A stretch of DNA of 64,000 nucleotides from Paramacrobiotus metropolitanus (Eukaryota > Tardigrada > Eutardigrada > Parachela > Macrobiotidae): NCBI RefSeq assembly GCF_019649055.1, contig NW_026570273.1, positions 62,001-126,000 on the forward strand. Reading direction: 5' to 3'. The notes under the pieces were generated by a model that saw only the letters and a program-made list of their open reading frames with translations, did no database searches and was not told the DNA's origin. A program made the position numbers and the translations under genes. Position 1 is the first letter of the stretch. Each line of letters opens with the position of its first letter. Positions 2,780 to 55,690 of the stretch are shown in pieces.

Positions 2780-4026
2780 TAGCCACCGTAGTAACCTGTA
2801 CACTTCATATTCTGTTTGTCGACTTCCGAAAATCTTAGTACTCACTCTTAGTCGGGGTAGTAACCTGTAGTTTTTTGGAGTCTCGGTAGTTTTCGGTAGC
2901 CTCGGTAGTTTGTGTAGTTTTCGATAGTCACCAGTACTCTCGGGAAGCGTGTGCAGTTTCCTGTAATAACCCTAGTTCGTGCAGCCTGCGTAGTCGCCTC
3001 TAGTTTTGTAGTTTCTGTGGCTCCCAGTAGTGTCAATAGTCTTTGAAGCATACGTAGGCGCAAAACTACCGAGACTACAGCAGACTACGCAAACTACCTA
3101 GACTACAGGAAACTACAGAAAACTACGCATACTACCGAGACTACAGGAAACTACAGAAAACTACGCAAACTACCGAGACTACAGCAAAATACGCAAACTA
3201 CCGGGACTACCGAAGACTACGCAAACTACGGAGACTGCAGGTAACTACAGAAAACTACGCAAACTGCCGAGACTACAGGGAAGAACTACGCAAACTACCG
3301 AGACTACAGGAAAGAACTACGCAAACTACCGAGACTACAGGAAAGAACTACGCAAACTACCGAAACTACAGGAAACTACAGAAAACTACGCAAACTACCG
3401 AGACTACAGGAAACTACAGAAAACTACGCAAACTACCGAGACTACAGGAAAGAACTACGCAAACTACCGAGACTACTTCGCTTACTGCCTTATATGGGCT
3501 CCCCTTGCACTACTCTCCCTTATCTGGGCTCCCGGCTAGTGAGCAATACCCATCAAATTATTTATCAGGATTTATAGCAGAACCCTTTTCTACTTCTTTC
3601 AACCAGTTTACAAGTGGGCACACCAAAGAATTCCGAAATTTCACATCTGAATTATATTTATATAATTATCTATATATATTTTAATTATATCTTATTATCT
3701 ATATATAATAATTTTAATTATATCTTAATTAAATTAAAATACACTCGATGCTACAAAAGTACTGGCGAAATAAGTATTTTAAATAAATCTAAATTTTCAT
3801 TCAGTCATAACACTGATAACAGCTGCAAAACTGTGAGTAATAACGTAACCGCCGATATAGAGGGTTGCTCATATTGGCCGGGAGCCCAGATAAGGGAGAG
3901 TAATATAAGGGGAGCCCATATAAGGCAGTAAGCGAAGTACTGAAAACTACGCAAACTACCGAGACTACGAGTTACTACAGGCAACCGCACAAAATAATGA
4001 AAATGCAGGTAACTACGGGCATGGCG
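2780..4026. repeat. Foldback-like minisatellite element with GTAGT / ACTAC arms
   Basis: The left part (about 2850-3060) is built of repeats in the sense GTAGTTT..TCGGTAG. The right part (3064-3475 and 3938-4020) has the opposite sense, for example ACTACGCAAACTACCGAG repeated with a period near 37 bases. The two arms are therefore inverted relative to each other. The outermost ends also match in inverted orientation: CCGTAGTAACCTG near 2787 and CAGGTAACTACGG near 4018. I found no convincing target duplication, so the ends are approximate. A MITE has inserted into the right arm. The architecture is like the elements at 21924, 23756 and 25693, but no A-rich core is present. Confidence 0.55.
3476..3937. 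mobile_element. MITE with about 70-bp terminal inverted repeats and TA duplication
   Basis: The left end begins CTTCGCTTACTGCCTTATAT and the right end is its reverse complement (about 70 bases, a few mismatches). The element is flanked by TA at 3474-3475 and 3938-3939, inside the ACTAC minisatellite, so host sequence continues on both sides. The interior is AT-rich (about 3650-3780) and has no transposase frame. A TA duplication with long inverted ends fits a non-autonomous Tc1/mariner-type element; the superfamily is inference. Confidence 0.75.
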
Positions 4027-5720: not shown

Positions 5721-8700
5721 CTAATCTTGACCCCCGGAATGCCGCTCGTACATAAGGCGCTGCAGCGCGTTCTGCGTCAGCTTGGTCAACGTGGACACAT
5801 CCAGACAGCGCAATTCATCGGCAGTCCAGCTGGTTCCGCGGTAGCGAATACCTTCTCGCCCATCGCCATTTTGGAAGTCGCGCAGGACCTGCGCAACGGG
5901 ACCATGTGACCATATGTCATAATAACATATGACATAAAAGCATTTCTGTTACTCTTAGCAGTTCGTAGACCCCAGGGACATCTCCGTCTGGGGGAATAAA
6001 TTTCAACTCACCTTCTGGATACGGTTACGGTCTCGTACATTCTCTTGCAATACCGTTTCCTGTATCCATGCAGTAAGACTGGCCGGATCGGTACACAGTG
6101 TCGGAAAGGCTGCCTCCAGCGTCCGCCACAAATCAGAGCACAAATCGGACGAATCCAAATTCCATAAGCCGTAAGAAAGTCGCTCTGCCCTGGTGTACCC
6201 AAAATGCCCACTGATAGGAGAAACCATACAGTTCTTCCAAATCACGGTAGCAACTGTCGATGTAACATCAGCACCGGTATCGGCGATCATGCGTATTTCC
6301 TGATTAAAGCATTTGGCCATCGTCCAAACACATTGGACAAATATCACCGTCAGTCTCCGTCCCGGCGCCTGCACTTTCCTAACAGCGTGGATGAATCGCA
6401 GGCAGTGTACAAAGTCTGTGAAACGATCTTTCTGAAAAGCGTTCCTTATTATGATGCGTTCGGTGGTGATGGTGAGACGTTTCCATATACTGCTGGCAAC
6501 CACGATAGGAACACGCGTTGTGGGGAATGTCACTCGAATTTCTTTGGAGTACTGGTCCTGAGTGAGCACACAATTCCACAGCATGCTGACGCGGCGACAG
6601 TTTGCAATATTAACGCTGTCCAGAAAGTGGAACACTTCGCTCATTATTTCCACTGGTAGTGTTAACACACATACAAATGGATCGCTCGACTCCTGCACCT
6701 TTACTTCAGAATTCGGTGTTTCCGCCGGTAAAACCCACCGAGATCCGGAAAATGTCCAACCTGCTTCCATGAGCTTCACCATAGCGCCCCAGGATTTTTT
6801 TTAGTAGGCTTTCCTATTGTGAAATACAAAAAAATATTTGGAAAGTCACCTGTGCAATAATATTTTACATCACGTAGTTTAAACACATACAGTCTGCAAA
6901 TTACTATCAATCCCGAACAAAAATAAAAATGAGCGAAGAACGATGTCACAGCAATCGCGTGCGTTGGCTTCGGCTCAAGGGTTTAGTTTCTGTTGTGTAC
7001 CTCGTACAATCAAGTTATTTTAACAGCACCTTTTACGGTACATAATATTTTCTAACAAGAACCCTTTTGTCGAACTGGAACTGCGTAAAATAAATGTGAG
7101 AAGTACAGTACCATACAGACCGCTTTCTGGTGTTTTTATGGACAAGGAGCAGGGAAAACAAGGAAACAGACACTGGCTTTTGCCGTTTAGCGTGTTAAAA
7201 GAATGGGTATATTACGAGAAAAATTTCATAACACAATTCTCGTGATTTTTGAATAAAGACTTTCTCTAATGAGCAAATGTTTGTACAGTACATTGCATGA
7301 CTGGGGACTGTTTAAAGCTCACAAGCAGTGACACCTCGTCAGGATATTTCTACAAATACGCGGCACATACCTTTGGCATTGATAGAAAAAAACCAGTTCT
7401 ACGTGGCAGTATTTTTAGATTAGGGTAACTGCAACCATTTTTTTTATAACAGCGATACAAACTTGGTATTGCAAAACGTTCCGTGACGTGTCCGACCGCA
7501 CATCGAGGAGGCCGCCCATCGCGAGTCAGAGAAACCGACCTTCGCCAACGCTGATCGTGGACATGCCGCATCGCATGCTTATCAGCTTGGCACATAATAT
7601 CCGGATTCAGTACGAGCAGGTGTATGTTTAGAACTTCAGTTGTATTTCCTGATCAACGAGTATCTTTTCCCAGCATAGTTTTCGTTTTTGGTTCTAGGAA
7701 CCGGCAAAATAACTCTTTGATAATTTTTCAATTCAAATTACACGTAACAATCATAGAAATTCGTCAGCACTCCATGTAAATCCAAAACCAGTATAAATAC
7801 TTAAATTTTTTTTTAATCGCTGACGTAACTACGGTGAAGGCGCGATAGCTTTCAAGTTTCTCCGATGCGTCGACGGGCGGCATCTCTGATTTACGGGAGC
7901 ACACATCACGCCGTCACGGGACGTTTTGCAGTACCCAGTTTGCATGGTTATCATAAAAAAGTGGTTACAATTACCCCATTGTAAAAATACTACAACGAAG
8001 CGCTGAGTTTTCTCTGTACAATGGTATGTGTCACTTTTTAGGAATAAGAAACCTTGTTGCACGCATACCAAACGATAGAAAAAGAATTGCGATTTATGTA
8101 TAAGTGAGTGCATGCTTCAGCTCTGTCTGGGGCCCTGGGCTACGTAAAAAATTTTGTCCTATTTGAGTTTTACAGGTTTGTTTATGTTCGAGTGGTTGCA
8201 GATTATAGACAAAACTGCAGGCAAAACTCTGAAGAGAAAGGGAATGTGCACAAGCTAGCGCCTGTGTTTATCTACTGATTTCGTAATCTGCAGCGCCTGC
8301 GTGAGGGAAAATCTTACATATCATTGAGTACTCACCACACGATCACCGCTCAGTATGATACCTCTCCGCAGTTCTAAACACTTTACTGTCTTGCCGACGA
8401 GGCAAACTGGAAGAATTTCGAGAGCATCCAACTGGCATTTCCAGATATTCCATAGCGGATCCGGCAGCGGTTCATCATCTGTGTACGACCGCGATAACGT
8501 TTATGATTTAACCACAAAATAAGAAAGTCGAACGGCGCGCTGCTTTAAAGTCTTCTTGGACGGCACAATCCGGACCATCGGACGGCGAAACCAGTCCTGG
8601 ACGATCCCAGAGCCGCACTGCACTTCCATACAAACCCACTCTCCGCCGAACATGCCGGGAGCAAGGAATTTGGCGGGGTACCAAGTCCAGGGTAGATCTG

Positions 8701-21914: not shown

Positions 21915-21923
21915 TACGTCACC

Positions 21924-22634
21924 GGCACCGCGACATTTCGCCGCCGACAACTGGTCGCAGGACTTTTGGTCGCAGACATTTCACCGCCAGGTCATCTCGC
22001 CACGCGACGTTTCATCGCAGGACCTTTCGTCGGGAGGACTTCTCGCCGCGAGACCTTCCGTCGCATGGCCGTTTCGACGCAAGGAAATTTTGCCGCAAGG
22101 ATATCTCGACAAAGCGACATTTACCTTATCAGATAAACGATTTACTGAGCTAAGCCTAGATGTAAGAGCCAAAAAAATTAAAAATAAAAGCATAACTAAA
22201 GAACAACCTGAGAAATCTAAGAAACCTAAGAAATCCGAGAAACTTAAAAAACCTAAGAAACCTTAGAAACCTAAGAAAATTTAAGAAGACATACGAAAAC
22301 CTGTGAAAGTCTTAGAAAGACTAAGAAATCCTAAGAATAAAACCTAAGAAAAACTAAGAACAGGCCTAAAAAAACTGAAAAAACTAGTGAGAGTAAAGCG
22401 CGGTGAATTATTTTGCGACGACCTGTCGCATCGTTCGAAAAGTCCCAAGACTAATTGTCCGCGACCAGACATCTTGCGTCGAAATGTCGCAAAGGTAAGA
22501 TGTCTCAAAGCATACTGTCCCAAACCGAAGTGTCCCAGTGTCCGAATGTGCGGCGGCAAAATGTCTTCGCGGCGAAAAGTCGCGCGTCGAGTTTGAGTGC
22601 GGCGAAATGTCACACTCCCAATTGTCCGGGTGCG
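21924..22634. mobile_element. Foldback element FB1 with 9-bp target duplication
   Basis: The left arm (about 21924-22125) is a run of variants of GGACATTTCGCCGC / GACTTTTGGTCGCAG. The right arm (about 22395-22634) has the same kind of motif in inverse sense (GCGGCGAAATGTC, GTCCCAGTGTCCGAATG). The core at about 22200-22380 is an A-rich run of CCTAAGAAA variants. The element is bounded by TACGTCACC at 21915-21923 and 22635-22643. The ends are GGCACC on the left and GGGTGCG on the right. It has no transposase frame; the open frames across it are by-products of the repeats. It lies 3' of copy 3. Confidence 0.7.
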
Positions 22635-22643
22635 TACGTCACC

Positions 22644-23430
22644 GCAGGTTATGTATTAAGAGTTAAGGTGACGTTATCTTTCGGCGTTTGCGGTGGCATG
22701 TGTACCGCCACTGCCTGCCACAATACAATAATAATCAAGAAAAAAGAGAAAACATTTCTACAAAAGAGTACCTTAGCCAACATTTTTGCACCCGGCATAG
22801 TGGCGCAAAACCAAATAAAATCGTCTCCTTTTTTATTATTAGTGAATTGTATTTGCCTAATTGTTTAGCCAAATTCTATGCGCTGAGAAATTACGGTTGT
22901 TAGGTGTTTCAGTCCAGTAAGATATGAAAACAAGCTCCTACCGGCTTCCGAGAACCTCCAGTCCTCCAGTAACCGGTTCCAACAAATGACGTAAATAAAA
23001 CGCAATGTCAGGCCTGTGTTAGATATTTAACTATCCGAATGTTTCACAAGAAAATGATCGCCAGAAGTATCAAAGTGTCCATCATTCTCCGAACAAGATG
23101 CAAGGTTATTATTAAGAGCGAAATGTTGGGTCGTCCGGCGCCATTACGGGGATTAACTCGCCGCAAAAGACCTCTTAATCTTCTTTTACGGTGAAGAGCC
23201 AAATTCGATTTTCGAACAATATTGCCACCATACACTGTTTATTACTAACAATTGCGTAACATAACAATTAAGTACTAAAACACACAATTCATCCCCTTAA
23301 GAAATTTCTTTCCGTTGTTCAGAAAATAATAAGGAACATTGTACGGATCACTGCGCTACCTTTACGATCCCGGCACTAATGTTAGAAGATAGTTTCCCGC
23401 TGTAATGAATTGGCAGCCTCTATAGAAGCA
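22644..23430. other. Intergenic, 3' flank of copy 3
   Basis: No gene recognised. 23044-23235 resembles 31900-32180 near copy 4 (GCCAAATTCGATTTTCGAAC is shared), so this is part of the duplicated 3' flank of copies 3 and 4. Confidence 0.4.
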
Positions 23431-26400
23431 TTACTTTCGGTCTCCTCTAGCCTTTTTTTCGAGCTTTTCAAGCAACCACGTGCTCTTGTTCCAGACCAGC
23501 TCCGCGCATTGACTTTCTACCATCAAGTTATTCAGAGCAGTCATCGTCAGTATGGTCAGCGTCGACACGTCCAGGTCGACCACTGGATATACAGTCCAGC
23601 TGAACTGTAATTTCACTTGATGCTCTGGAATTCGTGGATCCGAGCACTGCAAGGCGCTTAAGATCTGCAAAAATAGATCTGAGTGTCTGTAATAAAAATG
23701 CGCGCTTGACAATGGACTGAGTGTCCTTACGAAAAACATGCACAGTATTTCAAAAGGCGCATCGACAATTTTCTGACAGCTCTCTTCAATGCTGGCAGAC
23801 AATTTCCTGACGACTTTTTGCTGTCCTACGAAAATGTTTAACCGAAAATTTGCTGAAACGACAACTCGATGATCGACAAGTTACTAAAATTTAATTACAG
23901 TCTGCTCAACTCCGACATTTTGCTGACGACAATCTGTTGACTAAACGAAACATAAAAAAGCACAAGAATACGTTGCCAAACGTAAGAAACATAAGCTAAA
24001 AATATAATAACATTGTCAAACGTAAGATTAAAAAAGCAAGCATATAAAAACGCAAGGAAACATAAAGAAGCATAAGATAACGTAGGAAAACATGATAAAA
24101 TAACACAACAACCAGTATAAGAATCAACCTGAACCCAGAAACCAGACCGATAAGCAAGCTATCGGTCAACAAAATAGTTTCAGCGAAACGTCGGGCAGCA
24201 AAATTGTCAAAAAGCGATTTGTCGGTCAGTATTCTGTCGATCAGTGGATCCAAGGTTGTGTAAGTTAACAATATACATACCGGTCAGCAAATTGTCGGAA
24301 AGCAAAACGTAGGTCAACAAATTCACGTGTTACCATTTCAAAATCCCACATTCACATGCGCGTAATCGCACCACAAATAGGTAAATGGACAGACTTCGAT
24401 ATAAGTTTCAAGCAGAGGTCGCGCGTTAGTATTACCTTTGTGATACGAATAGTGTTACTGGTGGAACACCTATCCGCAGCACTCGCTATCTCACGGAGCC
24501 ACACATCTAGAATGTATGGATCGAGTGTCGAAGCCGCTAAGCCGGTTTCCAGAATGCTCCACAAATCACACAGCAGATTGGACGATTTCATATCAAGCAC
24601 ACCAGAGAAGCGTTTTTCATTCAGACTATATGGATATAATTTTTCAAATACACAGTTTCTCCAGATGACAAGGTCGATCACATCAGCAGCAGCAGAGCAA
24701 GCGTCCCTGATATTCGCAACCTCCTCGCCAAAGGTCGTTACACTATTCCACACGAACGTTTCGATAATCACCACCAAATTTTTTCCGGGCTCTTGTGGCA
24801 GGTTTTTCTTTAGACCACGGATCCATCGTAGACAGTCTGGCAAAGTGGTGTGAGATGCATTCCCAATGACAATGCGTTCCGTCGTTTCCGTCATGTATTT
24901 GCACAGACATCGGCCGACCATCAACGCTGCCTTATTTATTGCCAGCTTGGGGCCACGGTCAGCAAATGATACCCGAATTTCTTTGGGGTATTCGTCTTGA
25001 ATTATTAACGAATTCCACAAAGGACACACACGGCGGTACTGAACGCGGGGGACAGTGTCCAAAAACTGGAAGACTTGTTCGAGAATTTTTAACGGCAGCA
25101 TTTGGAAATTGGCAGAATCTTGTCCTATCGCGAGATCTTGGAAAACTTCATCCATAGCCTCCGTTAGTGGCAGCCAATGCGTGCCCAGAAACGTTAACCC
25201 ATCAGAAAGACGCCTTTTTAAACCGTCTCTAGCATTTTTCAAGCTCCGTACCTACAATGAAAGCTTATAAAAGGTATAATTTCAATGAAACTGGAGCCGA
25301 TTAATCTCAGAAACTTTGCGAACTGTGCTCAATTTACTTACATTCAACGGTTGTGCGGTCTAGACTCAATGTTTTACTCGAACGTTTGTATGGATTTCAA
25401 AATGGCCAAAAGGTTTTGTGATCCTATCTTTCTATTTGTTGTTTGATGCTATAAAAGTTGTAATTTTTAAGTTTTATTTCTTGAAATTCTGAAATCGTGT
25501 TTTTTAAGTCGATTTTTTATTCGTCGATAAGAAAATAATGTTTTTAAATTTGGTGTTCGAAAACTGTTGTTTCAGTGTGGTGTTTTTAATTTTGTTGTTT
25601 TCTGACTTGCGACGTACAAGATAGGGGAATCAGTAGCGCATTATATGCTTGCCCTGTGCTGACTGCTATAATCATCCGCCCAGATTTTCCCAGGCCCGCG
25701 CTCAAGCTCTGACTCTGACTCAGACTCTGACCGCTCAAACTCTGACTCTGACTACTCCAAGTCTGACTCTGACTGTCCAAACTCTGACTCTGACTGAATA
25801 ACCTAAGAATAACTTAAGAAACCTAAGAAAACCTAAGAAACCTAAAAAACCTAAGAAACCTAAGAAACCTAAGAAACCTAAGAAACCTAAGAAACCTAAG
25901 AAACCTAAGAAACCCAAGAAACCTAAGAAACCTAAGAAACCTAAGAAACCTAAGAAACCTATTAAGAAACCTAAGAAACCTTCAGAGTCAGAGTCAGACT
26001 TTGAGCGGTCAGAGTCAGAGTTTGAGTAGTCAGAGTCAGAGTTTGAGTGGTCAGAATCAGAGTCAGAGTCAGAGTTGGAGTCTAGGCCATTTTCCCATTA
26101 GTGATGCACTTATCGTCTGTGCTGTCATAATTAACACTTTAGTGGAGTCACTGGTACAATACAGGGTCAGTCACGCCCGGTTGACAGGCGACTGACCCCC
26201 ATCCCCCCCCCGCCCATATTTCAATAATATCTTTTCTGTCGAGCTTACCAGGAAATCAGGAGAAACGACGCCAGGGGACTGTAGTTGGTCTATCTGTATA
26301 TAGTACAGCGTGTCGTTGAGGAGGCGGACAGGCACAATGTTACTGCGGCTAAGCTCCTCCTGCCAGCAATTCCACAATGGAGCATTAGCTGGATTATCGG

Positions 26401-26926
26401 GAGCCGGCGCACGGTGTCCCAACATTGAACAGTGTCCTGCAGACAACTGCCCGGGTAAGATGCGGCGTTCGTCCAATTCGTATGATTCTGGTATGATACG
26501 TAACAACTGTGCCGGAATAACCTCGCGAAAGATTGTCGAGCCATGCTGCACCTCGATGGCGATGTAGCGATTGCAGAACAAGCCGGGAAGAAGCAATTTT
26601 ACCGAGTACCATCTCCACGGTTCATTGGCAGACGGGCGCCCTACCACTTCGAATTGGGGATGACCAAGTGTATCCAGTCTTCTTACAACTGCGTCGAGGT
26701 CGAAACATGTCTCATATGATCCTCCCGTCGACGTCAAACAGTCGAAGACTGTTCGGCCCGTTCCATACTCCAAAATTTCCCAGTGCTGTTGAGGGCCACC
26801 AAAGTCGATTATTAGACCGTTATTCCTGGTATCCATGACGTTTCCGTGCGCGAGTATACCATTGGATGACTGTACGTCCACGCTGTTTCCTCCGTACACT
26901 CCGGAAGTTTTAAAGAAAAAGCGCAT
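23431..26926 (-). CDS. Tudor-like/F-box family, copy 3 (intact)
   Basis: Exon B is 26926-26249 (226 codons), exon A 25251-24436 (272 codons) and exon C 23664-23431 (77 codons and stop). Every exon length is a multiple of three and the junctions are phase 0 (CTG|GTAAGC; TGTAG|GTACGG; AAG|GTAATA; TTGCAG|ATCTTA). The protein would be about 575 residues. Exon B starts MRFFFKTSGVYGGNSVDV and has VMDTRNNGLIIDFGG and PWRWYSVKLLLPGLF..IAIEVQHGSTIFRE. This spacing resembles the two Agenet/Tudor repeats of FMRP (motif resemblance only). PLWNCWQEELSRSNIVPVR follows. Exon A has the F-box LPLKILEQVFQFLDTV..YRRVCPLWNSLI near residue 275 and an alpha-rich region. Exon C has FSWTVYPVVDLDVSTLTILT. The F-box predicts binding to SKP1 in an SCF ubiquitin ligase. 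Foldback elements sit in both introns. The start was chosen because MRFFFKT is conserved in copy 4. Confidence 0.72.
23756..24334. mobile_element. Foldback element FB2 in the A-C intron of copy 3
   Basis: The left arm is variants of GACAATTTTCTGAC. The right arm is the inverse (GGTCAGCAAATTGTCGG, GGTCAACAAAAT). The core at about 23950-24120 is A-rich (AACGTAAGAAACATAAG repeats). It is flanked by ATTTCAAAA at 23747-23755 and 24335-24343. The same intron in copy 4 has ATTTCAAAA once (32708-32716) and no element, which defines the insertion exactly. No protein-coding capacity. Confidence 0.8.
25693..26088. mobile_element. Foldback element FB3 in the B-A intron of copy 3
   Basis: The ends GGCCCGCGCTCAAGCTCTGA and, inverted, GGCCTAGACTCCAACTCTGA form a clear terminal repeat. 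Both arms (25693-25796 and 25981-26088) are three to four units of a 21-bp motif (TTTGAGYRGTCAGAGTCAG plus two bases) in opposite senses. The core (about 25797-25980) is about 18 copies of CCTAAGAAA. It is flanked by ATTTTCCCA at 25684-25692 and 26089-26097. The copy 4 intron has no element here; its site is near 34608-34616. Confidence 0.8.
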
Positions 26927-28080
26927 TTTCAATCGTCGATAAAAAAATTTCGACTCTTGGTGAAAGAATAGGTAAGTAGTAAGTAAAAGTAAATACCAAA
27001 TAAGATACCAAATAATTAGCAATTACAGTATTTCTATACGGCCGCAGGGCTCACTTATTTCGGTTCTGATAATTATTAAAAGAGACGGTGTTTGCAGAAT
27101 ATTTTCAGAGATAAAATTAGATAAAACGGGCCCATGGTCGATCTTGATAGGCACTGAACAGTGGAGCACTTGCAGGCTTCAGCTTACCGAAGCAGGCGTG
27201 CTGCGACTGAACTGCCGTGGCTCGTAAAAGCAGGCGAGGCAGGTTATTGCGTCCATGCGGTGGAAAAAAGGACAAAGGCGTATGCACATTGTGCAGTAAT
27301 GTATGTTAGCGCATTTCCTTGAATCAGACTCAACGAAGACGGGCGCAGGAGATGCATTACCACCCTGTGCTGGTCAGTATTAAACTGCGTGGTCTGAAAG
27401 GCCTATGCTGTCCGTAACACCAAGAATACTCGGTGATAAGAGGGCAGGGAGATCAGTCAAAGCTTAGCTTTTCCGGGAATAGTGTTTTCGCTGTCCACTT
27501 GTCAAGAATTCTCTCAGTCTGATCATTCTGTGTTTGTTCTTGCTCTGTCTGAGTGAGCCCCTTCATGTGTAAATCGGGCGCTTGCGATTGCTCCTTGTCT
27601 TATTCGATGATGATTTCCAGATTTCGGTCTATCAGATGCAACGCTACAACCTCCATTGCATTTTGTGAAAGTGCATTACCACACGATTACCACACTCAAC
27701 CTTTACTGAGTTTCGTTTGCTGTTTTGCAGCAAAAAACTGCTATTAAGATTTAGGGGGGATGAAAGTTTTGTTAACAAAATTTCAGACAGATGCAACGGA
27801 AGAAAACATTCAGCAAAAGACAGCTTCCTCTTATCTGCTCACACAAAATCATTTTTCGTATTTAAAAAAAAATTATTAAATAGAGGTAAGTATGGTAGCA
27901 CCTAAGCGTAAGTAGAAGACGATAACAAGGGATTGGTGATGGACACTGATGGCCTACGTGAACGGCGGCCGAGATGAACAGAGACGGAACGTGAACGACG
28001 AAAGTGGCTGGTAGAAGCCATATGGCCATAAGCACAAGTGAACTTCCGGCAACCGGAAACTTTGAATGTCAATGGATTAA
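26927..28080. repeat. Upstream segment shared with copy 4
   Basis: Segments match the region upstream of copy 4 in order: CAGTGGAGCACTT at about 27163 and 35758; GAGGGCAGGGAGATCAGTC at about 27440 against AAGGCAGGGAGATTAGTC at about 36803; and an AACTTCCGGCAACCGGAAAC block at about 28039 against 37382. The gene and its 5' flank were therefore duplicated together. The segment likely contains the promoter, but no motif could be assigned. Confidence 0.55.
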
Positions 28081-32399: not shown

Positions 32400-35300
32400 T
32401 TACTTCTGGCATCCCCTGGCCTTTTCGAGTCTCCATGTGCTCTTGTCCCAGATCAGCTCCGTGCGTTGACTTTCTATCATCAAGTTATTCAGAGCGTTCA
32501 TCGTCAGTAGGGTCAGCGTCGACACGTCCAGGTCGACCACTGGATATTCAGTCCAGCTGACTTGCGTTTTCAGTTGATGCTCGGAAATTCGTGGATCGCA
32601 GCACTGCAGGCCGTCTAAGATCTGCAAAAACAGATTACAGTTTTTGTAACAAAAATACGCGCTTGACAATGGACTGGATGTCCACCTTTAAGAAAAACTT
32701 GCACAGTATTTCAAAATGTCGAATTCGTTCCCAAGCCTAACCGCACCCCAAATAACTGGCAGATTCTCCACAATTTTTCAAAAACAGCTAGCGTAAAATA
32801 ATGTTATTCGTACCTTTTTGATGCGCTTATTGATGGACCAGTTAAGCGTAGCGCTCGCTACCTCCCGGAGCCACACATTTAGGACGTATGGATCGAGTGC
32901 CGAATCCGCTAAACCGGCTTCCAACATGCTCCACAAATCACACAGTAGACTGGGCGATTTCAAATTAAGCACACCGGAGAAACTTTTTTCATTAAAATTA
33001 TATGGGTACCATGCTGTAAACGCGCCCTTTCTCCAAATGAGGAGGTCGATCGCATCAGCAGCAGCAGAGCAGGCGTCCCTGATATTCGCAACCTCCTCGG
33101 CGAAGGTCGTCACACTGTCCCACACGAACGTTTTGATAAACACCACGAAATTTTTTCCCGACCTTTGTGGCAACTTTTTCTTTAAAGCGCGGATCCATCG
33201 TATAATGTCTGGTAAACTATTGTGAGAAGCATTAGCAATGACAATGCGTTCCGTCATCTCCGTCAAGTATTTGCACAGACATCGACCGACCATTAACGCT
33301 GCCTTATGTACTGCCATTTTCGGTACACGGACAGCAAACGATACACGAATTTCTATGGAGTCTTCGTCCGGCTTGATTAAAGAATTCCACAATGGACACA
33401 CCCGGCGGTACTGCACGTGAGGGACGGTGTCCAAGAACTGGAGGACCTGTTCCAGAATGTTAAGGGGCAGCAGCTGAAAAGCGGCAGAATCTTGTTCTGT
33501 CGCATTTTGGAAGGCTTCGTCGATAGCATCTGTCAGCGGCAGCCAATGCGTTCCGAAAAACGTCAACCCATCTGAAAGGCGCTTTTTCAAATTGTCCCTT
33601 GCATTTGTCAAACTCCGTACCTACAACAAAAGTTTAAAATGCTTGATAGTATATCGTTTTCAGTACTTGGTACTTGGATGGTAAAGGTATATACTCAAAT
33701 ACTTTGATAGTATCGTACTTAGACAGATGTATCATTTTTATCATTTTGCGCAAAAAAAAGCGTTTCTCTGTTCGATGTCAGCATTAAGTCTACGAACATT
33801 TATTTATGGTTATTGTAGGTGTCCTTTTTGCACGTCGCTTATTTGTATGTGGCACTTCTCCATGCTCCCGGAAGCCTTATTTAACACTCACAAATTTATG
33901 AAACATGAAATTAACAGTTAGTTTTCTCTAGCTCTAGCTGACGTGGAGTTTTTTGTAACTTTATTAGATTTTAACCTCTTTTTAAGTGAACCAGGAAATC
34001 AGGTTACAATTCCCATCCCTTCAGGTGGGCGAGCGAATGGCAACCACCTCAGTGCCTCTGCGTGATTTGGCTTCAGTTGAAAAATTTCTTTGAAGCACTC
34101 ACCTTTTTCGAAATTATTGTGCTAAACAGAAAGCAACTGCTATCTATTTTAAATAAAAAGAAATAATAATGCTGGCAGTTTTCGAAGACAATTTATACTA
34201 AGTATAAAGGACCGAAGCACACGCTAGCGTGGTTTTAATAACAACTTAAGCAGCCTACGTGGCTGAGAACGAGCCATAAAGAATTCCGTTGATGGAGTTG
34301 AAGTTCAATACGACTAGACTAAACTAGAGCTCAAAACCAAGAAAAACCAATTCTAATTTTCGGATGTATACGTGTAATCAACTAATTATTACAATGTAAC
34401 AGACTGCGGGTGGCAGTCCTCTCCGAAAAATGATGCAGGACTAGTAAGGTCCTAAGGCGTCGTTCAGATATTACGCAAGGCTTAGGTGGTGGATCGGGCT
34501 GGCGCTGCCCATAGGCAAAATAAAAGAATTTTGTTGAGTTTTCGCATTGGTCGCGACTCGCGACGTACAACGCAGAGCTTTCTTGACTGCCCCAGTCATC
34601 CGCCCCGATTTTTCCGGCCTGGTTGCACCTAGCGTCTATGCACTATGCAGTCGTTTGATTACACTCAGAACACTCCACTCGGATGACTGTTACATTAAAG
34701 GGTCAGTCACGTCTGTAACCAACCAAAAGGTCCGCCGGGCGTTTTGCTCGGTTACACACGTCAGTGTATAATGGGATGTTGACTTGCCCTTCCCTATTCC
34801 AGTAATACGGCTTAAGTTGAGCTCACCAGGAAATCAGGAGTAGCACTAGCAACGTCAATGGACCGTTGAACTACGTGTACATAATCCAACTGCGTCTCGT
34901 TGAGTACACGGACAGGCACAATGTCACTGTGGCTAAGTTCTTCCTGCCAGCAGTTCCACAATGGAGCCATAACTGGATTATTGTGCGCAGGCGCGCGCTG
35001 TCCCAGCATTAAACAACTTCCAGCAGAAAAATGCCCGCGTTGAACGCGGCGTTTGTTCAGTTCGTAGGATGAGGGTACGACACGTAGCAACTGTGCTGGA
35101 ATAACCTCATGTAAGGTTGCCGAACCATGCTGCACCTCGACGGCGACGTAGCGATTGCAGAACAAGCCGGGAAGCAGCAAATTTACAGAGTACCATCTCC
35201 ACGGTTCATTGACAGACGGGCGCCCCACAACTTGAAATTTTGAACCCAATATATTCAGTCTTTCCACAACGGCGTCGAGGTCGGTCGCTGTCTCGTGTAA

Positions 35301-35507
35301 TTCTCCTGTTGATGTCATACAATGGAATACCATTCGGTTTGTTCCATATTCCAGAAACTCCAACTGCTGTTCACGGCCGCCAAAGTCGATAATTAGACCG
35401 TTGGTCTTAGTATCAATGACGTTTCCGTGTTCTAGTGTACCATCGAATGACATTACATCCACGCCGTTGCCTCCGTACACTCCGGATGTTTTAAAGAAAA
35501 AGCGCAT
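32400..35507 (-). CDS. Tudor-like/F-box family, copy 4 (intact)
   Basis: Exon B is 35507-34827 (227 codons), exon A 33620-32814 (269 codons) and exon C 32621-32400 (73 codons and stop). All junctions are phase 0 (CTG|GTGAGC; TTGTAG|GTACGG; AAG|GTACGA; TTTGCAG|ATCTTA), giving about 569 residues. Exon B: MRFFFKTSGVYGGNGVDVMS, VIDTKTNGLIIDFGG, PWRWYSVNLLLPGLF, VAVEVQHGSATLHE. Exon A: LPLNILEQVLQFLDTV..YRRVCPLWNSLI, then WLREVASATLNW at its end. Exon C: QVSWTEYPVVDLDVSTLTLL. It is the closest relative of copy 3 and the tandem unit spans about 8.4-9.3 kb. It lacks the two foldback insertions in copy 3 introns. Role as for copy 3 by inference: SCF substrate adaptor with an Agenet/Tudor-like recognition module. 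Confidence 0.74.
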
Positions 35508-37500
35508 TTTCAACCGTTGAGAATAGAATTCGGCTCTCGGTAAAAAGAATAGCTGTAAATTATTAATTTACGTACTGCATAGTAAAACACCAAATGATTA
35601 ATACTGTTTACTTGACTCATTGGCTGTACAGGAAAATAATTAAGGTACAGTTTTCGGCTACTCATTCAGAATGTTTGCAAAATGGGTTCTTGTAGAATAT
35701 TGTAGGATAAAAATAGATTAAATACACGACTCACGCTCGCTGTTAAACGGCGCTGCACAGTGGAGCACTTTTGGGCTTCGGCTACCGGAGGCGAAGAAGG
35801 CGTGCAATAACAGTCGTCTTCGCTCATTGATACAACCGTAGTCTAGCTGAACAGAGACAGAGAGAGGTCGGTCCAGCCGCGCATATGTTAAAGCCTTCGC
35901 CGATGCGATGACTGTGCAAACAAACCGTTCTATTGTCTTGGGACCCCTTGAGTCATAAACCAAGGGATCCCTTGGAATCGGCAATTGTCATTCGTCGTTG
36001 GTTGGCCAATGACAAACGGTAAATGCAGTTCCAATATCGTTTTGGAAACACCAACCAAGCACATTTCCAATGAAGCAGTGGTTGTGGAATGACTTCGTCA
36101 CTTTTTATATGCTGTATACGGCATAAGCCATAATACTACCATTTCAGTAGTGATTGCAAAGGTGCTATCTGTAGAGTTTTGTACAGGTTTTCTTTATGTG
36201 TAATGCTGTATACTGTATTTCAATACTTAATCTTTTTAATTGAATAGTATTACGCACGTACTTTCCTGAAACGACTTCCACCCATAAATTTGAATGTTTA
36301 TAACGCAGCGCAGTTTTAATGTTTTGGTTTTAATAAATATTTAATAATGCTATATTATAGAAATGATAACTTACTTTAACGAGTGCGAATGTGTGCGTTG
36401 TTGTCATACGTAGTTAACAACTGCTAAATGTAAATGGAATGTGAGCCAACTGGAATACGTACGTGAAGCCTGTATTAGCCCTCCCTCTATATAGTTCTGA
36501 GGTGGGGCTTGTGCTCTTACAGCGCATCAGGCGAAGCTTCCCTATACAGTGAGAAGACCTGCTATGTAATACAGAGCAGGCAGGTTCAGCTAGACTACGA
36601 TACAACTGAGGCCGGTTACTGCATCCATATGGTGGAAAAGACAGGACAGCAAAGGACAGGACAGATAAAAGGTGGACAGCAAAGTATGCCCCAGAGACCA
36701 CAGAGACGGGCAAGGGAGAGTAGGAGTCACACTGGCTGGTCAGAAACGGCTAAGACTGATAGGCCTGCGATGTCCTTAGTAACAATCGTACCAAATGAGA
36801 AGAAGGCAGGGAGATTAGTCGAAGCGGAGCATGTCTGAGTATATGCTTTCTGTCTTCTTCCTTGTTAAGAATTCTGTCCGTTTCCTTATTCTGTTGTTAG
36901 CGAAACCGTAGTCTAGCTGAACCTGCCTGCTCTGTACTCTACCTCTCTGTCTGTCTGTCTGTTCAGCTAGACTACGGCGAAACAACCAAATTAAATTACC
37001 GCACTTTGTTAAAAGGAAGCTAGGTATATCTGTGATTTTGCACCCTAAACTTTATTGAGTTTCCTTTGCTGCTCTGCAACAAAACACCGTTATTACTTAC
37101 AATTCAGACGGAAAATCACCCATAAGGCCATAACCCATTCTTTTTTGAAAGTTTTGTAAACAAAACGGAAGCAAAATCAAGATAAAATACCGCTTGCTCT
37201 TATTTGCTCACCCAGAAGCCTTTTTGGTATCTAAATACTATAATATAAAAAAAAGGATTACAGTAGCTCAAGAGTAATGAAAAGACGTGATGAGTAACAG
37301 CTGAAGTGAACGGCAGCCAAAATCAGTACAATCGGAATGTAAATGTCGCCGGTAGCCGCCATACGGCTATGCACTCGAGCCAACTTCCGGCGACCGGAAA
37401 CCTTACATGTATATGTGCATGCGTAACTTCTGTTCGTTCGATAGCATCGTACAGCGAAGTAACATGGCCTCTCCGTCAGCATATGATCGAATTGTGAGTC
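35508..37500. repeat. Upstream segment of copy 4, shared with copy 3, with inverted repeats
   Basis: Homologous to 26927-28080 but longer. A block of about 30 bases (TACAGAGCAGGCAGGTTCAG then CTAGACTACG) at 36571-36600 recurs inverted at 36907-36936, and GTAGTCTAGCTGAAC also occurs at about 35840 and, inverted, at 36960. A (CTGT)n run lies at about 36945. The extra length relative to copy 3 probably comes from this insertion. Confidence 0.5.
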
Positions 37501-38002
37501 TCACTGATCACCGAATGTGAATTTCGTTATGTCATGACCCGCAAAGCACGTCAAAATCGCCTTTACTCATGAGGTGTTCTTAAGGAAAGGGGCCTGGTAC
37601 ATGGTACCAAATTCGAGTGCATGCACGAAAACTTGCACACTCGCGCACTCCCAAACACTTTCTTGCTTTATTTTCGGACATTCTGTAGTCAGATGATTCG
37701 TATACATAGCGTGAAAACCGATTGTGCACGCAACATCCGGATCGGAAGATATGGCTACAAGAAAATCTCAAAAGGTTTAATTTACTGCATTCAGGTGTAC
37801 CAAAATTCTCATTATTAACCAATCTTCTTTAAATTTTGCATGAAAACGCACATATGCTTGAAGATCGTTCGTACGCAAAATCAAAGTTGCATTTTTTAAA
37901 ATTTCAAATTATTTCTTGAAGTTTAAAATTCATTTCAAAATTTGAAAAATTTTCTAAAAACGTGGTTTGGTGTAGAACGATCTTCACGTTTATGTGCGTT
38001 TT

Positions 38003-38616
38003 CAGTGAAACTTCTCTATAACATACACCCTCCGTTCCAGGCTTTCTGAATGTTACAGAGAGGTATGTTATATAGGAGCACTGCCGCCAGGGGAACTGCC
38101 CTCAAGAGCTCAGGTGCGTAGCCTCCGAGGGTTTTACTTTACCAAAAGATTCTCAAGGGCTCAGGTGCGTAGCCTCCGAGGGTTTTACTTTACCAAAAGA
38201 TTCTCAAGGGCTTAGGTGCGTAGCCTCCGAGGGTTTTACTTTACCAAAAGGTTAACAAAATACCAGAGTGTGGATATTATTCGGTCTGAATGTTGGTTCT
38301 GCTGCCCTTTTGTATGCCTGGAGTTGGAAAATCCGGTACTGAACGGATTACAAATAGAAGCCGGAACTTGGTTTTAAAGTCACCGAAATGGTTTTTTTTA
38401 CCAGCGGAGCCAACTGTATATTATGCTGGGGTTGAATAAGCTGGTAAAACTGTTACCGGTTCCATAAAAGGTGTATGTTATAGCTGTAAATGGGTGAATG
38501 TTATACAGAGAACTGCCCCTGTGTTATAGTCTACTGGACGGTTTGGTTCCCAGCCTCGTGTATGCAGTGAAGGGGTGAATGTTATAGGAAAGTGAATGTT
38601 AAGAGGAGTTTCACTG
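38003..38616. mobile_element. CAGTGAAAC-ended element nested in the complex
   Basis: The left end CAGTGAAACTTCTCTATAAC is matched by the inverse of the right end (CAGTGAAACTCCTCTTAACA). Subterminal GTGAATGTTATAG-type repeats are present. No clear target duplication was found, so exact limits are uncertain. It contains the 51-bp tandem repeat. Confidence 0.55.
38101..38253. repeat. Three tandem 51-bp units
   Basis: Units at 38101-38151, 38152-38202 and 38203-38253, each starting CTCAAGRGCTYAGGTGCGTA, differ at only two or three bases. The near identity indicates recent expansion. Confidence 0.9.
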
Positions 38617-38879
38617 CATGTGCAAAATTTGAAGTAGACAATAGTCCATAATGAGACTTATGGTACACATATGAATGCGTTTAAACATTTTGGAATTTTC
38701 TTCAGTCATAACTTCCGGTCGGGTGTTGCGCGCACAAACGGTTTTCACGCTTTGAAAACTGATGTTCCTCGACCAAAAAATTCAGTTCAGGAAACTTACT
38801 TTTCGCAGAATTTTAGGGACCATAGATCCAGCACTACGCCACCGTGCCAAATTGGCACGTATGGAAACTAGTACGCCAA

Positions 38880-42043: not shown

Positions 42044-44889
42044 TCAAAACCGTTGACCGCGCTTGGTTTCGATCATGAGCCGATTGAGTGTGATAACTGT
42101 CAAGTTGTTAAGACTGAAAACGTCTACACAGCTCAGCTCTTCTAGGGTCCAATACAACTTCTGCTCCTTGTTCCAAGATTGCAACTTCACTAAAGTCTGC
42201 AAAAAAGCACAGCTGAAGAAGGGTAACACAAAAATAGCACACACACTCATTGGGAATTCAACAACAGTTATATTAAACTTCGCGAAAAAGCCGATAACCT
42301 TGTTTGGCGTTTGACGGAATTGTAAGCAGGAGGACGAAAGAACTTAGTATAAGTTATAACGTTTCCTTACCTTCATGATATGTAGGCATCTGGATTTGTG
42401 ATCTTGGCGTTGAACTTGAACAGATTCCCGGATCCACTGATTCAGGACCGCTAGATCGAATGATAGTGCCGGTAAATTTGCCTCCAACAGATCGCGAATC
42501 TCGCTACTCCGAATTTCCGGATTCAAATCCAGCACACCGTGGAAGGGCAATCGGTCCTCCCAGATGAATGGGAAAGACGGTGAAAATTTGCAGCTCTTCC
42601 AAATTATACGTCCGATCGCCGAGGAAGCATTGATACCAGCCCCGCGGATCTTTGCTATCTCCCAGTTGAAATCCCGTGACATATTCCAGACGAATCGATT
42701 GAATATAACCACCAGCTTGTGTCCCGGTGTCTGCGACAGCGCGTCCCAAACAGCGCTGACGAAGCGCAAACAATCGCCGACAGCGGTCTCCTTGTCATGC
42801 TCGTACGCATTGGTTATAACAATGTGCTGTGTCGTCACGGTGACACTTCCACAGTGCTGTACCAACAGCGATAACTGTCTGCTTTATAGATGGCATCGCT
42901 CCATAAAAGGCAAAGGAAACCTTAACTTCCTGCGAGAATTTCTTCTGGTTGAGTATCACATCCCATAGCGTGCACACACGGCGGCTTTGAGCACGCTCCA
43001 CGCTGTCTAGGAACTCGAAAACGCCTTCAAGGATTTCTATTGGTAATAGCCCCAAAGATTCATTATCAGATGTTTCAGTCGGCTCTTTTCCGGTCTCCAT
43101 ATCATCCACTATATCTGCTTCGGCCTCGTCTTCCGGTAGAACTCGATACCACTGTTACTCGCAAAATGTCCAGCCGCTAGACAGCCGCCTCTCGGTATCC
43201 AAATTGGCCTCATGCAGAAGTTTTGCCTGACATTACAACGCATGATTACTAGCGAATGATCCACTCAAGTTGATAGTGTGCACATTTGTGTCGGTTTTAT
43301 AATTATATAAAATATTTTATATACATAAATATTTACATTTAAAAATGTTTTATTTATATACAAAAATTTACGCTTTATTAGTACCTATTCTCACTACATT
43401 GCCACCACTTTTGGCTATTGTCCACACCTCGTCCACATTTTGATTATTCGCAGCACGCTTTCAAAATAATTTCTGCACCACCCTTTTGGTACTCCCTTAT
43501 TGGCTATTCCCACCTTGTTCTTATTCTGTACTTGAATTTGCAATGGAAATCTTTCACAGACTTTACTAAAACTATTGAAAAGTGATATGTAACATTAAAG
43601 GTGAACGACCTTTAAACGCCGATAGTGCTAAACTGCTAGTACGTACTGCATCTGGTGTTTTGCACTATGCAGCAGCACGGCTGAAACTTTCGAGCAAAAC
43701 TGCGTGTTGCACTGTTATCGGAAGAAATTAATGTTATCGGCAGTCCTCCATGGCGATCAATCGGTTCAGTTGTACTAGAGAAATGTGGTCACTCCTCACT
43801 CGCACCTGGTCTTCCCTTCCGTCAGGATTTCTGAACTTACGGAGCGAATGCAAACATTTTTATCGAAATATTCTTCCGATCTGCGAAATGGCACCGCTGC
43901 GATTCTTTTGCGGCCGAAAGCTACGAAATGGCACCGCCTTGCGCGGCCGCAATAAACATCTGATAATGCAATAAATGCAAAAAAAAGGTTGGGAAAACAC
44001 AGAACAGGTGTGCGAAGGCGGCGACACTAGTCAAAAGGTGGTGTTAGAATTCATTTCAAAATTTCAAAAAACCACTGAAAGGTGGTGAGAGTAGCCACAA
44101 AATGGTGCGATGTGTGGCTACAGCCAAACCCTTTTCTAAAGTGCGTTAATAAAGAGCATCTATCCACGCATTCGGCCTGCCCCATTCCAGTCCATTACAT
44201 ACAATGCAACTTATTACTCAGTTACTCACCACGCTTTGCTTTATTCCTCCATGGGCCGATTTCCTGATATATAACATCGCATCACTGAGCAGGCGAACTG
44301 GCAGTATATCCCAAAGCAATAATTTCTCCTGAAACACGTTCCAAGCAGCAGCCGAATCAATGACCTCACAGTTCTCCGGCAACGCGCAGCATTGCACAGA
44401 AAAGCAACCCACAGGAACACTTCGCTCCTGCATGTCGGGCGGTGCCGGCATAACACGGACTGAATGGATTGGGAAGGACTGCTGGTAGACCATCGATTCA
44501 CAGAGCACCTCTACGAAGACATAGCTATCCCGGAAGAGATCACGCACGGCAAATTTCGCTGGGTACCACGTCCACGGCTTATCGGCAGAGGTCCGGGCAA
44601 GGATTTGAAGAGGAGCCGTGGAACGGATACGAAGTATCTTTTTGAGTTCTCTAACAGTCTCCAGATCGGCTTCGGAGTCTGTCTCCAAGGATTCCCCTGT
44701 TGAACTCCGGCATTCGAACACCCTGTCGCACTCCACAAACTCTGTACGCCTCCCGCAGCAGTCGAAGTCGATAATGAGACCGTTGTCCACGACGTCGATG
44801 ACCTTTCCATGCTGTAGATGGCCGCCGGGTCCCAATACATCCACGCTGCTCCAACTGTAAACTCCCCCGGTCTTGAAGAGTAAAGGCAT
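42044..44889 (-). pseudogene. Tudor-like/F-box family, copy 5 (exon A broken)
   Basis: Exon B is 44889-44230 (220 codons, open; MPLLFKTGGVYSWSSVDV, DVVDNGLIIDFDCCGRR, TSADKPWTWYPAKF; donor GTG|GTGAGT). Exon A is 43226-42371 (GTCAG|GCAAAA to AAG|GTAAGG). Exon C is 42196-42044 (KLYWTLEELSCVDVFSLNNL). Exon A has an in-frame TAA in its first part, right after SSGWTFCE. It also has a frame change near 42840, where two bases are missing relative to copy 6 after ALWKC; exon length is 856, not a multiple of three. The F-box (LPIEILEGVFEFLDSV..SRRVCTLWD) itself is intact between the two lesions. All splice sites are preserved, so inactivation looks recent. Closest to copy 6. Confidence 0.6.
43370..44155. 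mobile_element. Inverted-repeat element in the copy 5 intron
   Basis: 43385-43520 carries CACCACTTTTGGCTATTG-type motifs. 44020-44140 carries the same motif inverted (CAAAAGGTGGTG, GGTGGTGAGAGTAGCC). The outer ends GCTTTATTAGTAC and GTGCGTTAATAAAGAGC are also roughly inverse. The motif recurs at 5515-5665. No target duplication was established. Confidence 0.5.
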
Positions 44890-44895
44890 TTTCAC

Positions 44896-48621: not shown

Positions 48622-48838
48622 TGATACAATTAAGGTGGTTTTGGTAGTTTGCTTTAATGAAGAGTAATTCAAGTGTCGTTAACATTGTAATTGTAGCATC
48701 CTATATACTCAGTAAAACAGTCAGATTGACTAAACTTCTGAGTAACAACTTCGCCTTTAAGGCCGGTGTATGACAAAGGGGCTGGGTGCCAACATGAGTA
48801 ACAGACATTAGTAACGGTTACACTCATTTATTCTAACA
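48622..48838 (-). repeat. 3' LTR of the copia element
   Basis: Identical over 217 bases to 52850-53066. In element sense it starts TGTTAGAATAAATGAGTG and ends TTGTATCA. Confidence 0.95.
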
Positions 48839-52782: not shown

Positions 52783-52832
52783 TGTAGTATCCACACAACA
52801 ATGATAAAACAAACTAAACACTGCTTAGAGAC

Positions 52833-54552: not shown

Positions 54553-55690
54553 ATGGCCGCTCTGCATATTAAGCAGGGTTTTATCTGGAAGGTCACTACC
54601 ATTTGGGTGGCGTTACTGCAGATGTGCGGTTACCTTCCTATCATGGTGAACAAACGTTCGCTATGGTCAGTTTTCCTGCGCTGTGTAATGTACATTTATA
54701 TAGCGCTTATTTTATCCGCTAATTGTTATATACTGTACGATGATTGGGCGTATTACGACGAACTGCCACAGTCATCCAACTGGTTCACCGCGATCTTAAT
54801 CCAGATGATGGACGCGTCAGAGCGGATTGCCGATCTGTTATGTATGCTCTTCATGTGGTCCTGCAACCAACGCTTTTTGGAACTGATTGGTAACTTGGAC
54901 CGAATGCACGGCTCAGTGCTGACGCAAAAAGAAATTCGTATCAGCATTGCCGGAACAGTAGTCTATATCGCTTCCGCGGTGTTTAAAAACGCTTATTGGT
55001 TTATCGTGGAGCAATGGAATCCACAAGATTACACGGACGAAAGGAAAATCGCTGTTATTCTCAATATTCCGATCCCTAACATTGTAGTGGAATGGTCTGC
55101 TCGTGTTATTTTTACCGTTTTCGGTATTACCTTGCACGTATTACCTTGCACGGTATTACCTTTCGGAACGGGGAAAGCTTCAAGTCAAAATATTGCACCC
55201 TCACCGCAGTAGAAGCAACTTACGTCAATGCCAAATCTAATTTTTCACGTGAAGTATCATTTTCATCATCTCAGTTGTCGGGAAAATTTCCCGCACTACT
55301 GCTCTCCGTCTCCACAAACGGGGAAAGCTTCAAGTCAAAATATTGTACCCTCACCGCAGTAGAAGCATTTTTACGTCAGTGCCAAATCTAATTTTTCACG
55401 TGAAGTATCATTTTCATCATCTCAGTTGTCGGGAAAATTTCCCGCACTACTGCTCTCCGTCTCCACAAACAGCTGTTCCACAACGAGTTTGTAACTTTGG
55501 AAGAGCATATTTGTCAATCAAAGTTAACTAGCGTCGTCGGAGAACTGGACAAGTGCTTGCGCTTGGTTACCGGTGTCCGCTGCTATATGGGACAAACCGA
55601 CCCCATTTGGCCCTTTCCTCGGATGTAATACTCATAAATGAAGCAATACTCGCGTTTCGAATGTTGGCATCGTGCACGTTTTTTAACTTT
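54553..55690 (+). pseudogene. Gustatory-receptor-like gene broken by a tandem duplication
   Basis: The frame opens at MAALHIKQGFIWKVTTIW and follows the receptor at 13319-14783 through VVEWSARVIFTVFGITLHV. It then meets two 150-bp tandem units (55171-55320, 55321-55470) and loses frame. Receptor sequence resumes in other frames: RTTALRLHKQLFHNEFVTLE at about 55448-55507, GELDKCLRLVTGVRCYMG to about 55590, and NEAILAFRMLASCTFFNFII from about 55640. The parts are in the right order, so the gene is whole but disrupted by the duplication and by frame changes. No exon 2 or 3 was found downstream. Confidence 0.65.

Follow-up and report, generated by a model that had tools for sequence, protein, structure and literature searches.

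Foldback transposons occur with diverse arms, and what holds arms, ends and enzyme together is unclear. A 64,000-nucleotide stretch of the genome of the tardigrade Paramacrobiotus metropolitanus (contig NW_026570273.1, positions 62,001 to 126,000; hereafter the window) raises this question in compact form, in that three elements with inverted arms, E1, E2 and E3, lie within 4.2 kb of one another, each enclosing an A-rich core and each flanked by a perfect 9-bp repeat. We consider it likely that E1-E3 are non-autonomous foldback transposons moved in a cut-and-paste manner by transposases of Mutator-like elements (MULEs), with E1 and E2 depending on MULEs that bear a FLYWCH domain, that arms and enzyme drift together, and that the core is a satellite shared among the families.

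Three foldback elements and their genomic families

Direct reading of the sequence confirmed the three elements with the boundaries and perfect 9-bp repeats given in a preliminary description of the locus. E1 (711 bp, positions 21924 to 22634, plus strand) lies between copies of TACGTCACC at 21915 to 21923 and 22635 to 22643. Its ends read GGCACCGCGACATTTCGCC on the left and CGCACCCGGACAATTGGG on the right (right ends are given as reverse complements throughout), its arms are built of diverged GACATTTCGCCGC-type units, and its CCTAAGAAA-type core occupies 22205 to 22337 on the plus strand. E2 (579 bp, 23756 to 24334, plus strand) is flanked by ATTTCAAAA at 23747 to 23755 and 24335 to 24343, has the ends GGCGCATCGACAATTT and GGTAACACG, and contains a CGTAAGAAACATAAG-type core at 23973 to 24051, also on the plus strand. 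E3 (396 bp, 25693 to 26088, plus strand), with a 21-bp arm unit and the ends GGCCCGCGCTCAAGCTC and GGCCTAGACTCC, is flanked by ATTTTCCCA at 25684 to 25692 and 26089 to 26097, the latter boundary being that used in the duplication test, and its core consists of 19.6 units of the 9-bp CCTAAGAAA at 25800 to 25981 (plus strand). As had been noted, all three left ends begin with GGC (GGCACC, GGCGCA and GGCCCG, respectively). Tandem Repeats Finder (TRF) and an inverted-repeat finder recovered the A-rich cores of all three elements, together with arms that were clear in E3 and weak in E1 and E2 because the arm units of the latter have diverged. The identification of E1 draws on near-complete copies, counts of its left end and an inward arm motif, that of E2 on alignment of its arms with those of two transposase-coding elements (L041 and L042), and that of E3 on TRF, inverted repeats, copies and duplications.

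The genome (169,799,020 bases in 533 contigs) contained further copies of each element, as the preliminary description had anticipated, so that E1, E2 and E3 each represent a repeat family. The E1 region gave at least 62 matches (40 of 873 candidates scored), with near-complete copies spanning about positions 24 to 735 of the query, limits that lie no more than a few bases from those of the element. E3 gave at least 125 (40 of 1,114 candidates scored), its near-complete copies likewise ending within a few bases of the boundaries, and E2 at least 54, which were more diverged (40 of 161 candidates scored). The 20-base end of E1, allowing one mismatch, occurred at 153 genomic sites and the 22-base end of E3 at 259, while the reversed-pattern control of each gave none.

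Flanking duplications were scored in the best 20 E1 copies after that of the window (76-85% identical to the window copy; L004 and L009 share flanks, leaving at most 19 insertions) and in 20 of the best 21 E3 copies (87-97% identical; one ending early was skipped). An exact 9-bp repeat stood precisely at the ends of 6/20 E1 and 15/20 E3 copies, and one with at most one mismatch at those of 7/20 and 17/20, compared to 0/380 mispaired flanks in each family at the latter tolerance. When repeats of 8-10 bp, up to one base away from the ends, were accepted, the counts were 10/20 for E1 (control 0/380) and 15/20 for E3 (control 1/380). The smaller number retained in E1 fits a greater age of this family, since its copies are more diverged than those of E3. 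Among E2-type elements, duplications flank the window copy, L041, L042 and the pair L055/L056; the latter two share one duplication and for this reason are probably a single insertion.

Empty sites were sought for 27 insertions, among them the three window copies and six E1 copies, by joining the 50 bases on either side of each and searching the genome with the joined sequence (40 of 870 candidates scored). Uninterrupted paralogous sites, matching over ~100 bases at 97-100% identity, were recovered for 5/27 insertions, namely four E3 copies (L022, L029, L035 and L036) and the autonomous E2-type element L041. Taken together with the duplications, which had been part of the preliminary description, these findings establish E1, E2 and E3 as real transposons that insert with 9-bp duplications. 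One of the E3 copies, L029 (flanks on G000:C492), sits inside a repeat that also gave uninterrupted matches at 29 further places.

FLYWCH-MULE transposases and their arm units

A domain search of the genome returned 39 matches to the MULE domain PF10551, and the arms of two of the corresponding elements, L041 and L042, match both arms of E2, at 74% and 70%. L041 (3,090 bp) is flanked by the duplication TGTCACAAT and L042 (3,027 bp) by GAGCTCGCT; their ends, GGCGCACCGACA and GGTAGCACGACA, are similar but not identical to those of E2 (GGCGCATCGACA and GGTAACACG). The L042 protein contains FLYWCH (E 2.6e-9) and MULE (E 1.5e-6) domains according to Pfam, and a Pfam scan of its two coding pieces returned no PHD finger, the mark of the Rehavkus group, whose transposases are described as carrying this finger (PMC6446971). 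L041 and L042 are thus transposase-coding elements with E2-like ends and arms, and correspond to the full-length MULE with a GGC end for which a search had been suggested. Two further loci, L055 (96%) and L056 (91%), keep the outer parts of an L041/L042-type element and lack ~2.0 kb of its interior, as a deletion derivative of an autonomous element would.

We place E2 in the FLYWCH-MULE lineage because its ends and arms resemble those of L041 and L042, which code for a transposase of this type, and E1 in the same lineage because of its arm motif and ends. The inward motif ACAWTTYKSC (at most two mismatches) occurs at 7 and 8 sites in the E1 arms and at 5 and 6 in the E2 arms, a descriptive enrichment over shuffled means of 1.35-1.83, the observed counts being reached by 0, 0, 1 and 1 of 200 shuffles. 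The word GACATTTCGCC occurs once per strand in E1 and recurs in loci of the L088 group, although the form of it given earlier, with a second G in front, is absent from the window copy. The proposal that each element has its own arm motif therefore holds for E3, whose arms are of another kind, but not for E1 and E2, whose arms share a motif with autonomous elements. E1 and E2 would best be read as non-autonomous foldback MULEs similar to Phantom and Tm1, a reading that is well supported by these sequence comparisons. Two candidate partners of E1 were rejected. The long E1 copy L082 (G000:C14:1575000-1577900) carries an insert with a gag-like CCHC open reading frame (ORF), as judged from the ORF, rather than a transposase, and the MULE near an E1 copy at L068 has an inverted repeat of its own.

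A protein search for the transposase gave 50 matches, and 19 of 38 fetched loci matched the L042 protein and were aligned, the FLYWCH domain having been called by Pfam on the L042 protein only. The sequences DGTF and DFEQ were each present in 17/19 rows and, excluding L041 and L042, the aligned proteins were 33-46% identical to that of L042. TRF detected arrays of 15-16-bp units in all 19 loci. In the transposase tree, 6/15 inner branches of which were well supported, the arm unit CATTTCGCCAACC is found in the group L088-L091, L093, L094 and L096, CATTTTGGCCACC in the group L078, L080 and L087, and CGACAATTTGCTGAC in L041/L042, so that related transposases carry related arm units along the tree. 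With the GGC end placed on the left, the transposase lies on the minus strand in L041, L042, L080 and L088. An exact 9-bp repeat was also found around the domain, beside matching inverted ends, in 7/22 MULE loci, 6 of which do not match the L042 protein; 9-bp duplications are therefore general among the MULEs of this genome and by themselves are no pointer to the FLYWCH lineage. In L061, L062, L063, L069, L072 and L075, MULE loci without a match to the L042 protein, exact 9-bp repeats stand beside inverted ends that are not obvious satellites.

These observations suggest a mechanism in which the tandem arm units probably act as repeated binding sites for the FLYWCH finger. Ends of the GG...CC type would be cut and joined, insertion would be staggered by 9 bp and followed by fill-in, and arm unit and enzyme would drift together across related transposases. 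The enzymes acting on E1 and E3 would likewise be MULE transposases.

Core satellite, probable arm turnover and competing explanations

Three consecutive CCTAAGAAA units matched 1,402 genomic places (control 0), and the core is a satellite common to several families. Its surroundings were read in the first 20 listed arrays that had not been assigned to E1 or E3, two of which proved to be E3. In keeping with the suggestion that cores bounded by inverted satellite arms would be found genome-wide, arms were present on both sides of 11/20 arrays (L097, L099, L101-L105, L108, L109, L111 and L115) and on one side of 2/20 (L106 and L114), and one array, L098, belongs to a transposase gene. An automatic test for inverted repeats of at least 55 bases across the middle was positive for 10/20 core arrays compared to 3/58 window tiles, one of which contains E3. 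The arms around the core were of the E3, E4 (see below) and E2 types, or were built of a 16-bp GGCC-containing unit or a 20-bp unit. L041 and L042 contain no CCTAAGAAA unit, and the core is therefore not needed for their movement. A core beside the MULE arm of L094 was considered as belonging to that MULE, and on reading belongs to an adjoining element.

In two loci, L085 and L098, the coding pieces of a FLYWCH-MULE transposase are separated by an intron that is occupied for the most part by a core array, extending up to the second piece; on the coding strand the array reads TTTCTTAGG. The intron of L079 holds a T-rich degenerate array, and L102 and L103, which are near-identical and count as near-duplicate rows, combine E2-type arms, a core and a FLYWCH remnant beside the core. 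Since TTTCTTAG with G following the boundary resembles a 3' splice site, a TTTCTTAGG intron looks like a series of repeated 3' splice sites. The core of the non-autonomous families may have been inherited from a transposase gene with an intronic core, or exchanged between families by recombination. An extension of this idea, which we put forward only tentatively and with low confidence, is that foldback MULE families form a swarm in this genome, their arm satellites and the FLYWCH finger that reads them turning over jointly, and that many of these families draw on a single shared core, a TTTCTTAGG "splice-acceptor satellite" that grew in a transposase intron and was passed to non-autonomous families.

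The core arrays also revealed a fourth family, E4 (L101, L105, L111, L117 and L118), which is informative with respect to the arms. Its end, GGCCCGYGCTCAARCTC, is the left end of E3, or one base off it, and stands on both sides of the element, in contrast to the right end of E3 (GGCCTAGACTCC), which differs from that of E4. Duplications of 9 bp flank three E4 elements (CAGTGCCTT, CAATTTGCG and ATAGCTAAC) and are imperfect in L101 and L117; all E4 elements carry the core except L117, in which no core array was seen. The E4 end with the first arm bases occurs at 140 genomic sites (control 0). Unit after unit, the arms differ by the same change, from CTCTGACT in E3 to CTTGGACT in E4. Beyond the shared 17-base end, E3 and E4 arms aligned in register agree at 27-30/43 bases in 10/12 comparisons and at 12-13/43 in the two involving the right arm of L105, although this test, made against mononucleotide shuffles with tandem repeats on both sides, is a weak measure of homology. 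An arm swap between the families was considered and dropped once this alignment showed the arms to be related in register. Exchange from arm to arm after insertion was rejected as well, as similarity within an element equalled that between copies (0.842 vs 0.841 in E3, and 0.613 vs 0.611 in E1). Left and right arms of one E3 copy are 84% alike compared to 96% for left arms of different copies, indicating that the arms were fixed before amplification. The difference between E3 and E4 fits repeat turnover of the kind the preliminary description had proposed, in which the arm unit would be altered throughout, with one outer end and the core retained, and it offers the strongest backing for that proposal.

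Two loci of these families were examined as possible autonomous elements and set aside. The MULE near an E3 end at L081 has its own inverted repeat and the adjacent E3 is complete, so that their nearness looks coincidental. The long E4 copy L117 (G000:C88:156850-159250; 2.23 kb between facing ends) contains five ORFs without a Pfam match above the cut-off, and its flanks agree at 6/9 positions by eye. When 1,621 bases of its interior were searched, the first ~280 were repeated elsewhere and the remainder had no match other than itself (40 of 54 candidates scored). This largely unmatched interior possibly represents captured host DNA, as in Pack-MULEs.

Several results weigh against our reading of E1-E3 as families moved by MULEs. 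Half of the E1 copies (10/20) lack an 8-10-bp duplication at their ends, a strict test found none in 16/18 E2-type loci, with only L055 and L056 positive, and clear end duplications are present in only 6/19 FLYWCH-MULE loci (L041, L042, L080, L088, L089 and L096). No autonomous copy with exact E1 ends was seen among 100 of the 153 end sites, for which few long candidates were fetched, and no E3 or E4 locus that was examined had a transposase between its ends (100 of 259 E3 ends, again with few long candidates). ACAWTTYKSC was picked after the arms had been seen, several right arms of autonomous elements show it weakly (in L088, 2 sites vs a shuffled mean of 1.07), and its counts do not exceed those of shuffles in E3 (0 and 0) or E4 arms (0, 2, 0 and 0). 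Arms were not recognisable within ~550 bp of 6/20 core arrays, and a clear core array was present in only 2 of 13 introns read.

These results bear on four other explanations. The strongest holds that the A-rich core originated elsewhere than in transposons, several families and the transposase intron each having captured it independently. The low number of introns with a clear array, a direction of transfer that may be read either way, the lack of any unique flanking sequence found common to the cores, and the presence of the E4 core in both orientations all favour this explanation. Capture should nevertheless yield both orientations generally, and in elements whose unequal ends are distinguishable, placing the GGC end to the left gives a plus-strand core of the CCTAAGAAA kind in E1, E2, E3, the E2-type loci, L115 and, by inference, L109, E4 being the exception; six cases are a small number, and independent capture is a real contender that we nonetheless lean against.

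The second explanation concerns the enzyme of E3 and E4, which could come from a lineage other than FLYWCH-MULE, be it another MULE group or, for example, Merlin; the likeness of these two families to E1 and E2 would then reflect convergence and a shared satellite. Merlin elements (IS1595 type) make 8-9-bp duplications, and the genome has 10 matches to the Merlin-type DDE domain PF12762 in addition to non-FLYWCH MULE groups. The arms of E3 and E4, not being enriched in ACAWTTYKSC, and the failure to find a transposase between their ends agree with this explanation. Against Merlin in particular, the tests applied to the three of 10 Merlin loci that were fetched detected neither inverted repeats nor duplications, and no listed Merlin site fell within 5 kb of the listed E3 or E4 ends by eye (100 of 259 E3 and 100 of 140 E4 ends). 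Since E3 also agrees with E1 and E2 in its 9-bp duplication, its GG ends and its core, polarity included, we judge a non-FLYWCH enzyme for E3 and E4 unlikely, albeit far from negligible.

The third explanation, that E1, E2 and E3 are all mobilised in trans by the same transposase, which would recognise the GGC ends and the core and ignore the arms, resembles the preliminary proposal that one enzyme mobilises the whole family, and can point to the GGC left ends, core and core polarity common to E1-E3. It is very unlikely in our estimation: the arm unit goes with the transposase subfamily, the enzymes differ as widely as their identities to the L042 protein indicate, and L041 and L042 lack the CCTAAGAAA unit. 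A clade of related enzymes, with subfamilies that have their own arm units, appears to fit better than one enzyme. Finally, it is hardly credible that the three elements are chance juxtapositions of arms and cores belonging to ordinary dispersed satellites. The abundance of the core triplet and the arrays without nearby arms would suit this view, but are outweighed by fixed ends, by 9-bp duplications against 0/380 controls and by empty sites; the last refute it for E3 and the autonomous E2-type element, and for E1 the case against it rests on duplications.

Known systems and other features of the window

The reading of E1-E3 as foldback MULEs with drifting arms can be compared to known systems. 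The closest is Tm1, a Mutator/Foldback family of root-knot nematodes. Its composite inverted repeats are made of tandem units of 13-15 bp, 45/53 elements have duplications of 8-10 bp (9 bp in most), the short terminal motifs are unequal, a purine-rich motif is found at the inner arm end, and an element of ~2.6 kb encoding a FLYWCH and MULE transposase exists beside non-autonomous forms (PMC3169594). The architecture of Tm1, as described, is nearly the same as that found here with respect to tandem units, unequal ends, 9-bp duplications and a FLYWCH-MULE. In contrast to Tm1, which is described as one family with one arm unit, several families with different units here share a core satellite, the arm unit has changed throughout between E3 and E4 behind a fixed end, and the core occurs in a transposase intron. 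Phantom is the wider MULE clade, some members of which have a FLYWCH finger; its inverted repeats measure 18-613 bp, duplications are of 8-10 bp where stated, and minisatellite has been noted in aphid members (PMC6446971). The likeness drawn here is one of FLYWCH and MULE domains, duplications and inverted repeats, rather than of position in a reference tree, and the Phantom descriptions consulted mention no core common to armed families, unlike the situation in this genome (PMC6446971).

Galileo, a foldback element of the P superfamily in Drosophila, has a transposase DNA-binding domain with multiple sites in the tandem repeats of its long inverted repeats (PMC3688188). It provides a precedent for arm binding as modelled here, albeit with the P superfamily and THAP in place of MULE and FLYWCH. 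Tetris of Drosophila virilis is described as a non-autonomous foldback with tandem-repeat arms of ~220-bp units, 8-10-bp duplications and outer ends in common with another element, for which no autonomous partner was found (PMC4079207). It resembles E1-E3 in being a non-autonomous foldback with tandem arms and similar duplications, and differs from them in the length of its arm units. The Drosophila FB and FB-NOF elements have foldback arms of short tandem units and 9-bp duplications, and their likeness to E1-E3 is one of description alone. No description of a core satellite common to foldback families and a transposase intron was found in the titles and opening lines of the papers that our searches of an open-licence library listed. 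What is new here is the number of arm types sharing one core, the concerted change of the E3/E4 arms, and the intronic copy of the core. Because many subfamilies with transposases, arm units and empty sites occur in one genome, co-evolution of finger and binding site becomes testable, and concerted arm-unit change (E3 vs E4) and the sharing of an inner satellite between families are open to direct sequence study.

Other features of the window lie outside these families. A further inverted satellite structure, built of AAACTACCGAGACTACAGG units, occupies 2849 to 3476 and 3877 to 3939, and a clean 9-bp duplication was not found for it. The same was true of inverted repeats with arms of 40-61 bp at 58136 to 59303, 7384 to 8015 and 37700 to 38759, which may be other DNA transposons. 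ORFs of a Copia-type retrotransposon span 48833 to 52821 on the minus strand, the larger with reverse transcriptase and integrase domains. Repeated F-box protein ORFs are located at 24352 to 25242, 32778 to 33611 and 56843 to 57787, with an F-box detected in both of the two scanned, and a second repeated ORF family at 26171 to 27022, 34812 to 35513 and 60783 to 61541, and also 44218 to 44895, with no Pfam match in the two scanned. Each F-box ORF lies within a few kb of an ORF of the second family, and E3 sits between one such pair. TRF also identified a 151-bp unit repeated twice in tandem at 55167 to 55470, the copies matching at 96%.

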